Under the pieces are notes generated by a model. It made no database searches. It was not told the origin of the DNA and saw nothing but the letters and a program-made list of their open reading frames with translations. The position numbers were made by a program, and so were the translations under genes. 64,000 nt of DNA from Proteobacteria bacterium 005FR1 (GTDB lineage Bacteria; Pseudomonadota; Gammaproteobacteria; Pseudomonadales; Cellvibrionaceae), in NCBI GenBank assembly GCA_026192395.1, contig WACF01000001.1, positions 3,532,309 to 3,596,308 of the forward strand, read 5' to 3'. Shown piece by piece: positions 33,203 through 40,642 of this stretch (positions within the stretch are counted from its first letter, which is position 1; each line of letters opens with the position of its first letter).

Positions 33203-33280
33203 CCGCTGCTGAACTCTGTGGCGGCTTGCGACTCGAACGCGTCCCGAGTTCTCTCTATCGCGTATCGGTATCCGATTTCG

Positions 33281-33874
33281 ATGCTTGCCAACCAGAATAT
33301 TCCACTTGTCGATCTGCTGCAGGAAGTCCGTGCTTGTCGTGCCTGCGACGAGCAGCTGCCGCTCGGCGCGAATCCGATTGTCCGCGCGCGACCTAGTGCC
33401 AGGATTTTGATCGTGGGGCAGGCGCCGGGGACGCGGGTTCACGCCACCGGCGTGCCCTGGAATGATCCCTCCGGCGACCGCCTGCGCGAGTGGATGGATC
33501 TTTCCCGCGAGGCCTTTTACGACGAGCGCAAGATCGCCATCATGCCGATGGGTTTTTGCTATCCCGGGCGCGGCAAGTCCGGCGATTTACCGCCGCGGAC
33601 CGAATGTGCGGAATTGTGGCACGAGCGCATTCTGTCCGCGCTACCGAAGATCGAACTGACCTTGTTGGTTGGCAGCTATGCGCAGGCCCACTATATGGAA
33701 GGGCGCTATCCCTCATTGGCCGCACGCGTTCGCGACTGGCGACGCTTTGCTCCGGCCGCGATGCCCCTCGTTCACCCGTCACCCCGGAACCGCCGCTGGC
33801 TGAAGGACAATCCTTGGTTTGAAGAGGAGCTCATTCCGCACTTGCGCCAGCGGGTAGCCGAGGTGCTGAGTTGA
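33281..33874 (+). CDS. uracil-DNA glycosylase family protein, 197 aa
   Basis: Residues about 45-60 read ILIVGQAPGTRVHATGVPWN, the family motif A region (GQAPG). The C-terminal motif B is PLVHPSPRNRRWLKDN. An N-terminal CRACDE pair could be the start of a metal-binding patch, but the four-Cys iron-sulfur set of family 4 enzymes is incomplete, so this belongs to the small uncharacterised UDG-like branch. Base excision of uracil is plausible but unproven for this branch. The ATG at 33281 was preferred over an earlier open frame (33218), although its Shine-Dalgarno is weak. Confidence 0.8.
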   Translation: MLANQNIPLVDLLQEVRACRACDEQLPLGANPIVRARPSARILIVGQAPGTRVHATGVPWNDPSGDRLREWMDLSREAFYDERKIAIMPMGFCYPGRGKSGDLPPRTECAELWHERILSALPKIELTLLVGSYAQAHYMEGRYPSLAARVRDWRRFAPAAMPLVHPSPRNRRWLKDNPWFEEELIPHLRQRVAEVLS

Positions 33875-33904: not shown

Positions 33905-33936
33905 AAAAAAAGCCCGGCACAATCCGGTGCCGGGCT
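33905..33936 (-). terminator. rho-independent terminator of the sRNA
   Basis: AGCCCGGCAC (33936-33927) pairs perfectly with GTGCCGGGCT (33920-33911), followed leftward by T7 (33911-33905). Confidence 0.92.
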
Positions 33937-34100
33937 CGAACTAACAAAAGAGCAAGAAGGAAAAACCTCAAAGGAGTGGGCCATCCTTGGCCCTGTATCT
34001 TCCTTAAAGTGTTACCACGCTATCGGAGCGAGCATCCCTGCGGTAACTTGCCTTGGCCCGAAGGCCCCCTGGCGAGGTGCTTCCTGCAACGTCCCTGTTG
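33905..34100 (-). ncRNA. candidate CsrB/RsmY/RsmZ-type CsrA-sequestering small RNA, about 196 nt
   Basis: Read leftward, this gene-free region carries GGA motifs in an Rsm-like setting. CAAC-AGGGAC-GTTG forms a 5' hairpin (34100-34087); CAGGAAGC follows at 34086-34080; AGGGA between GCA and TGC is at 34039-34035; AAGGA at 34005-34001; and a perfect GGGCC-AAGGAT-GGCCC hairpin presents AAGGA in its loop (33993-33978). A GGCC-TTCG-GGCC tetraloop and a GTTACC/GGTAAC long-range stem add structure. It ends in a 10-bp terminator stem plus T7. An AATAAT -10 lies at 34112-34107. Five of the GGA motifs have the A(N)GGA form preferred by CsrA. No protein frame explains the region. Confidence 0.7.
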
Positions 34101-34155
34101 CTGCACATTATTGGCAAACGCGGGTGGCGCCGATAGTCGCTATAGCTGAGGACTT

Positions 34156-34173
34156 TGTAGGAAAAGGCTGATG
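34156..34173 (-). promoter_or_regulatory. possible GacA box upstream of the sRNA
   Basis: TGTAGG-N6-CTGATG matches the GacA palindrome TGTAAG-N6-CTTACA at 8 of 12 positions. Its centre lies about 64 bases upstream of the predicted sRNA start, the distance typical for rsmY/rsmZ promoters. Confidence 0.4.
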
Positions 34174-34210: not shown

Positions 34211-34690
34211 TTACCACCAGTACTTGTTCCAATTTTCGGGATTGGCCCAAAAGCGTGGATTGTTCCAGGTTCGTACGTGGTTGTAGGAGGCCAGGTCGTA
34301 GCCGTAACAGACCATCGGTGGTTCGTCCAGATCGCTCTCGAATTCCGCGTAACGGCGGAAGCCAAGACTGATGAAGTCGGCAAAAGTCCATGGTCCCGCC
34401 TTGTTTACCAGTACCCAGATGCGCTCGCTGTGAAGGTTGCGCAATTGCGCCAGCTTTTTCAGCCCTTCGGATTTGTGCAGATGCTCAAGATAGTCGGCGA
34501 CGATGGCGAATTGATATCGCCCGAGTCGCGACCAGTCGGGATCACGGGAAGTAATTCTGGTGAGTTCGCTGTGATGAACCTCGGCCCAATGCTCGACGGT
34601 GTCGGGAATGTGATCGGCGGCTACCAGGACGCGGTCCGGGTGCAGGTGCTCGAGTTGATGCAGAAGGTGTTGTAGAGGCGTCTCTGTCAT
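34211..34690 (-). CDS. hypothetical protein, 159 aa (DUF6231-like)
   Basis: I recognise it only loosely as a Pseudomonas-type small hypothetical (DUF6231-like). It starts MTETPLQHLLHQLEHLHPDR followed by VLVAADHIPDTVEHW and YQFAIVADYLEHL, the alternation of strands and helices expected of a Rossmann-type fold similar to methyltransferase-like proteins, but no SAM motif is clear. The C-terminus is aromatic-rich (RTWNNPRFWANPENWNKYWW). No signal peptide. It is followed by the sRNA promoter region and has no close operon partner. Function unknown. Confidence 0.6.
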   Translation of the reverse strand: MTETPLQHLLHQLEHLHPDRVLVAADHIPDTVEHWAEVHHSELTRITSRDPDWSRLGRYQFAIVADYLEHLHKSEGLKKLAQLRNLHSERIWVLVNKAGPWTFADFISLGFRRYAEFESDLDEPPMVCYGYDLASYNHVRTWNNPRFWANPENWNKYWW

Positions 34691-40201: not shown

Positions 40202-40417
40202 TCAGTCGCAGACATCTGCCAGTTCAAGAGTGACTTCGAGGTGCTTTTCTTCCGGGTGCATGTCGTCCCGGCGCAGGACCTCTTCCCGGTGAACCGGCAT
40301 CGACCGGGGGGCATCGATGCCGATGCGCACCTGGTTGCTGCGTTGAGACAGGACGGTGATCTTGATCTGATCCCCGATCCAGAAGGACTCGCCTTTGCGG
40401 CGGCTGAGAATTAGCAC
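40202..40417 (-). CDS. csrA: CsrA-family RNA-binding regulator, 71 aa, secondary paralogue
   Basis: GTG 40417 with GGAG seven to ten bases upstream gives the canonical MLILSRR start. The core runs KGESFWIGDQIKITVLSQRS and NQVRIGIDAP, then VHREEVLRR, keeping the RNA-contact residues Leu4, Arg7 and Arg44 region (VHRE). It differs from typical CsrA/RsmA (about 61 residues) by several core substitutions (SFWIG for TLMIG) and a C-terminal extension of about 15 residues (HPEEKHLEVTLELADVCD). The usual csrA sits near alaS/lysC, so this is probably an additional copy. Its own Shine-Dalgarno contains GGA, so self-repression is possible. Confidence 0.88.
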   Translation of the reverse strand: MLILSRRKGESFWIGDQIKITVLSQRSNQVRIGIDAPRSMPVHREEVLRRDDMHPEEKHLEVTLELADVCD

Positions 40418-40642
40418 GGGTAGACTCTCCATGTTGTCCGGTTTTTACGCGCAGTTCGCTCTTTCTCTGCAGTATACGGGAGGGCTTTCCGGCCGCCAGA
40501 TGGGGCCGGAAGTTTCACCGACAAATGCGAACAGGTTGGCGTTTGCACGCACCGTTGGCGTTCCGTATGCCTGCCGGTGGGGCTGCTTGTCTCAAGCAAA
40601 GCCGCCGCGGGCAGCTTATAGCGGGCGATCCCTTGTAAGAGG

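Follow-up and report, generated by a model that had tools for sequence, protein, structure and literature searches.

Does a short gap between two genes of Proteobacteria bacterium 005FR1 encode a small RNA (sRNA) that acts as a Gac-controlled sponge for CsrA, as an initial annotation had proposed? The gap lies in the window, the whole 64,000-nucleotide stretch of DNA analysed here; positions are those of the window unless a contig name precedes them.

The predicted intergenic RNA and its fold

The predicted CsrA-sponge sRNA (the window sRNA) occupies 33905..34100 on the minus strand, a prediction based on the rank of its terminator and on its promoter. It would be ~196-200 nt long, with the start placed from the -10 element. 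On one side of the gap lies a gene on the same strand (34211..34690), and on the other a convergent gene of the uracil-DNA glycosylase superfamily (33218..33874, plus strand). The intergenic position, next to a uracil-DNA glycosylase gene and a hypothetical gene, was thus correctly described, and the hypothetical gene encodes a DUF6231 protein (PF19742).

Direct reading of the minus strand revealed five A(N)GGA motifs between 34100 and 33978, two of them in perfect hexaloop hairpins, together with an intrinsic terminator. The hairpin GGGCC[AAGGAT]GGCCC (33978..33993) is the strongest predicted CsrA site, with p 0.98-1.00 in every fold tried. Predicted CsrA site 1 is the 5' hairpin GCAAC[AGGGAC]GTTGC (about 34087..34102), in which CAAC[AGGGAC]GTTG corresponds to 34100-34087 and the stem reaches 5 bp when extended to 34101. 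This hairpin has p 0.99 in local folds and 0.07 in the unlimited-span fold; in the unlimited-span minimum fold long-range pairing replaces it, while the AAGGAT loop is kept in all folds. A further domain (34011..34047) is closed by GTTACC (34047-34042) pairing with GGTAAC (34016-34011), with p 0.83-0.98 for the closing stem, and includes GC[AGGGAT]GC (34041-34032), whose GGA is about half unpaired. The AGGA motif at 34082..34085 is mostly paired, and the AAGGA motif at 34001..34005 pairs with UCCUU in local folds. The terminator (about 33905..33937) consists of a GC-rich stem followed by T7, and the U/C-rich stretch TTTTTCCTTCTTGCTCTTTTG lies ahead of it. The five motifs, both hairpins (the CAAC-AGGGAC-GTTG hairpin at the expected 5' end), the GTTACC/GGTAAC stem and the terminator are therefore all present as the initial annotation had listed them. 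Its statement that several GGA motifs lie in hairpin loops stands for the two firm hexaloops: in local folds two of the five motifs are firmly exposed, a third about half, and the other two are mostly paired. Folding of the 196 nt, which had been proposed as a check, does not bury all GGA motifs, since the AAGGAT loop stays intact in every fold tried.

The 196-nt RNA folds better than its shuffles (z -2.4). Its GGA counts were equalled by 0.1-0.3% of dinucleotide shuffles and by 0.05-0.2% of random 196-nt genome windows, and its summed hairpin score was reached by 0.08% and 0.05% of them, respectively. Note that GGA counts alone would point to tens of such places in the 4.3-Mb genome, coding DNA included. 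We also ranked intrinsic terminators with non-coding DNA upstream, scanning 2.46 Mb of the genome, and the window sRNA came first of 42 by GGA-hairpin score (13, compared to 8 for the next).

Comparison with known RNA families

The divergence of Csr sponge RNAs is too rapid for searches by sequence or covariance to follow. Rfam at its gathering threshold gave no match in the window, and the suggested scan with the RsmY, RsmZ, CsrB and CsrC models found nothing above threshold. In a permissive scan the best of RsmX, RsmY, RsmZ, CsrB and CsrC was rsmX (17.1 bits, E 1.1; gathering score 56). The RsmY model, run over the organism's own genome, gave weak matches, at neither the window sRNA nor C1:2389600-2389950. 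DNA searches with the body of the window sRNA in 58 relatives, the genus itself being represented by a single genome, returned chance pieces only; the best match (L002) was rejected because it sits in an hflX-like GTPase gene.

Like Pseudomonas RsmX, RsmY and RsmZ (RF02144, RF00195, RF00166), the window sRNA is short and intergenic, with looped A(N)GGA repeats, a GacA-type box and its own terminator. Unlike them, it falls below the covariance thresholds, the right half of its box reads CCTACA, and GCSACT lies 23 nt before ATAATG. Its proposed role resembles that of Escherichia coli CsrB and CsrC, CsrA sponges with GGA hairpins, although the same count of A(N)GGA-type matches gives 21 for CsrB, 15 for CsrC and 7 for the window sRNA, which has no Rfam match. 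In Pseudomonas aeruginosa, RsmW has 7 GGA motifs, 3 of them exposed, and binds RsmA (PMC4950607), which makes it a precedent for RNAs with rather few exposed sites. As in the window sRNA, the GGA motifs of RsmW are partly exposed and it lies 3' of a same-strand hypothetical gene (PMC4950607); however, its weak GacA site is ~830 bp upstream, whereas the GacA-type promoter of the window sRNA is directly upstream.

A promoter common to other GGA-rich RNAs

Another high GGA scorer among the non-coding terminators of this genome, C1:2389600-2389950 (minus strand; L264), adjoins ispA-like genes. It apparently contains two Csr/Rsm-type sRNAs in tandem, A (ACACGGATGCAGCTAAGGGAGTCGGCAGGGAGTCGAC...) and B (AAGTTGAAGGATCAACT...), each with a terminator and neither matched by Rfam. 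A full GacA-type box, TGTGAGACATTTCCTACA, lies upstream of sRNA B. A DNA search with this locus matched other genera of the family (Cellvibrionaceae) mainly at the upstream box region, and at four of those loci different GGA-rich RNAs follow the same box. sRNA B (C1:2389600-2389745) and the window sRNA have in common the promoter elements and their spacing, a hairpin with an AAGGAT hexaloop and a terminator of their own; unlike the window sRNA, sRNA B is 136 nt long and has a full box, and there is no detectable homology between the two bodies.

In the promoter of the window sRNA, the AATAAT -10 element given in the initial annotation is present (34107..34112). ATAATG starts 23 nt after the element GCGACT (34135..34140, about -40 to -35), the same distance from GCSACT as in sRNA B and relatives. 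GCGACT follows 15 nt after TTTCCTACA (34164-34156), and GCSACT occupies the same place in the siblings. TTTCCTACA is half a GacA box: it forms the conserved right half of the GacA-box-like 18-mer CATCAGCCTTTTCCTACA (34156..34173), the left half of which has decayed. The centre of the 18-mer is 64.5 bases upstream of 34100. Thus, the claim of a GacA-like palindrome about 64 bases upstream was right as to position and right half, but the palindrome itself is not there: TGTAAG-N6-CTTACA with up to two mismatches is absent from the window box. Used as a stand-alone predictor, the Pseudomonas GacA palindrome with up to two mismatches was rejected (44 sites, compared to 77 for the control); one of the 44 is the box of sRNA B. 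The right half TTTCCTACA is identical in 19 promoters of GGA-rich RNAs in Cellvibrionaceae, and since the left half is likewise poor in four of these siblings, its decay in the window sRNA is not disqualifying. Despite this decay, a GacA/UvrY-type upstream site is present in a family-specific form with exact spacing.

The aligned sibling promoters consist of TTTCCTACA, 16 nt, GCSACT, 23 nt and ATAATG (ATACTG in one). We searched with a loose pattern, TTTCCTACA-N14-17-GCSACT, and a strict one, TTTCCTACA-N15/16-GCSACT-N23-ATAATG. The loose pattern occurred at more than 60 places, in 39 of the 144 family genomes and 13 of the 32 genera (3 for the reversed control). Among the loci fetched, most of those with a 16-nt gap stand ahead of terminator-ended RNAs that measure ~130-370 nt or more and contain between 3 and 29 GGA-type motifs; other loose matches look coding or unrelated, among them a group from genus g4 whose gap is 17 nt. 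A third loose match in the organism's own genome, C1:3280168-3280199 (plus strand), also has a 17-nt gap. The strict pattern matched five times across the order (390 genomes; reversed control 0), each time ahead of a GGA-rich RNA: these are the window sRNA, sRNA B and three sRNAs from a single relative. Since the window sequence had been known when the pattern was drawn up, it was left out of the training of two profiles. With a profile from 19 sequences the window promoter scored 29.7 bits, compared to 8.5 for the best unrelated site in 2.46 Mb, and with one from four other-genus sequences found by BLAST only it scored 28.5 bits, compared to 17.4. By both profiles it ranks second in the 2.46 Mb and sRNA B first.

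GGA-rich RNAs with the same promoter were found in other genera of the family at L265, L266, L268, L271, L274-L278, L280, L282-L285, L287-L289, L292, L302, L304 and L306; in one genus a genome can have as many as five promoter matches. These siblings fall into several size classes and carry up to 29 GGA-type motifs per RNA; those examined are unmatched by Rfam, and their bodies show no likeness to the window sRNA beyond chance. As judged from sequence, the promoter common to GGA-rich RNAs of other genera is the decisive evidence that the window sRNA is of the Gac type.

This promoter bears directly on the possibility that the region is a long 3' UTR of the DUF6231 mRNA, in which the GGA hairpins would be a CsrA-binding or processed 3' piece and not a separate Gac-driven gene. 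DUF6231 is on the same strand, no terminator was seen between its stop (34211) and the window sRNA, and a 3'-UTR origin has a precedent in RsmW, reported to derive from PA4570 (PMC4950607). The DUF6231 gene stops 38 bases ahead of the GacA-like box. Against a 3' UTR stands the promoter between its stop codon and the window sRNA, which is of the sRNA type, complete, and spaced as elsewhere in the family. Moreover, other genera do not share the DNA 3' of DUF6231: synteny was not conserved across 26 family loci and 29 of the 80 named loci. The DUF6231 locus of Aestuariicella (Pseudomaricurvus) albida, family Cellvibrionaceae, was found in one family genome (G013). We consider a 3' UTR improbable.

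Less probable still is a Gac-controlled sRNA acting mainly by Hfq-dependent base pairing, with incidental GGA motifs. Although TTTTTCCTTCTTGCTCTTTTG precedes the terminator and there is a weak likeness to VrrA (37 bits) and Spot 42 (27 bits), both below gathering scores, these matches were rejected because they are due mostly to the terminator and the pyrimidine-rich tract, and the other RNAs under the same promoter are GGA-rich. A chance origin, in which an ordinary terminator between convergent genes merely happens to have some GGA hairpins beside it, is scarcely credible, since, however many places in the genome have similar GGA-hairpin counts, the strict promoter match occurs only ahead of GGA-rich RNAs and its combination with a GGA-rich terminator is unique in 2.46 Mb.

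The Gac/Csr circuit and the proposed mechanism

The genome encodes orthologues of BarA/GacS (C3:270669-273314; 35% over 890 aa) and GacA/UvrY (C1:244610-245257; 52% identical to E. coli UvrY), and a canonical CsrA, closely similar to the E. coli protein, at C1:1029378. Two similar GacA-box-like sites (TGTAAGCTGCCAGTTTCA and TGTAAGCTGCCAATTCCA, at C1:1026873 and 1027373), 500 bp apart, are located ~2 kb from this main csrA gene. A divergent CsrA paralogue (LSRRKGESFWIGDQIKITVL...VHREEV; 40202..40432, minus strand) lies between nrdA-like and argF-like genes. The initial annotation had held the RNA to be relevant to this paralogue, 6 kb away, but we found no tie beyond distance; a partnership of the two is possible but unproven. 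A published Teredinibacter genome has GacS, GacA and two CsrA homologues, and the passages found in that paper mention no sRNAs by name (PMC2699552).

The exactly spaced Gac-type promoter, together with GacS/BarA, GacA/UvrY and CsrA in the genome, supports the proposed Gac-controlled CsrA sponge. From these signals we infer transcription, GacA control, CsrA binding and titration, and it is very likely that the window sRNA is a stand-alone gene of the Csr/Rsm sponge type under Gac control. With looped GGA motifs, a promoter and terminator of its own in non-coding DNA, a GacA site, and GacS, GacA and CsrA encoded in the same genome, it is, by these sequence signals, a probable member of the Csr/Rsm functional class, yet belongs to no Rfam family. 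In the proposed mechanism, phosphorylated GacA, acting with GacS/BarA, would bind the degenerate box centred at about -64 and activate the AATAAT promoter, giving an RNA of ~196 nt that ends at its own terminator. The 5' AGGGAC and the AAGGAU hexaloops, and possibly AGGGAU too, would bind CsrA dimers, and the window sRNA would in this way withdraw CsrA from its target mRNAs, a task shared with the putative tandem sponge RNAs at C1:2389600-2389950.

A dispersed repeat with loops resembling CsrA sites

A dispersed repeat of ~110 nt was also observed. Its long outer stem varies in sequence and encloses two hairpins, and the loops of both keep to A(G/T)GGA(T/C). These loops, for example GTAC[AGGGAT]GTAT, resemble the CsrA consensus. 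In the organism's own genome the repeat occurs at C1:143234, 457441, 938873, 1888571, 1920052, 2046173, 2159295, 2341921 and other places, and it is also present in family genomes: its core, GTACAGGGATGTATNCACAGCG, was found in 41 of 144, where it reaches 31 copies, while neither the reversed control nor versions with permuted loops gave any match. It is possibly a mobile or regulatory repeat with CsrA-type sites.

Putative sponge RNAs in the Cellvibrionaceae

The Cellvibrionaceae are known for polysaccharide degradation. In the open literature that we searched, Csr sRNAs of this family are nowhere described, though other papers could have such a description. One could go further and propose that the family has its own unlisted set of Gac/Csr sponge RNAs, in which a genome has as many as five promoter matches and an RNA as many as 29 motifs. 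Most of these RNAs would be unrelated in sequence, and what unites them would be a single promoter (a GacA half box and GCSACT at constant spacing). The window sRNA, with its half box, would then be a specialised member that is separately regulated or prefers the divergent CsrA paralogue nearby; as a whole, this proposal is speculative and rather unlikely. The more useful result, beyond the single RNA, is that the Cellvibrionaceae appear to have an uncatalogued set of sponge RNAs marked by one promoter. The promoter signature finds such putative sponge RNAs with few false matches, while Rfam misses all those looked at, and so the RNAs still missing from the Gac/Csr circuit of the Cellvibrionaceae become identifiable and testable.
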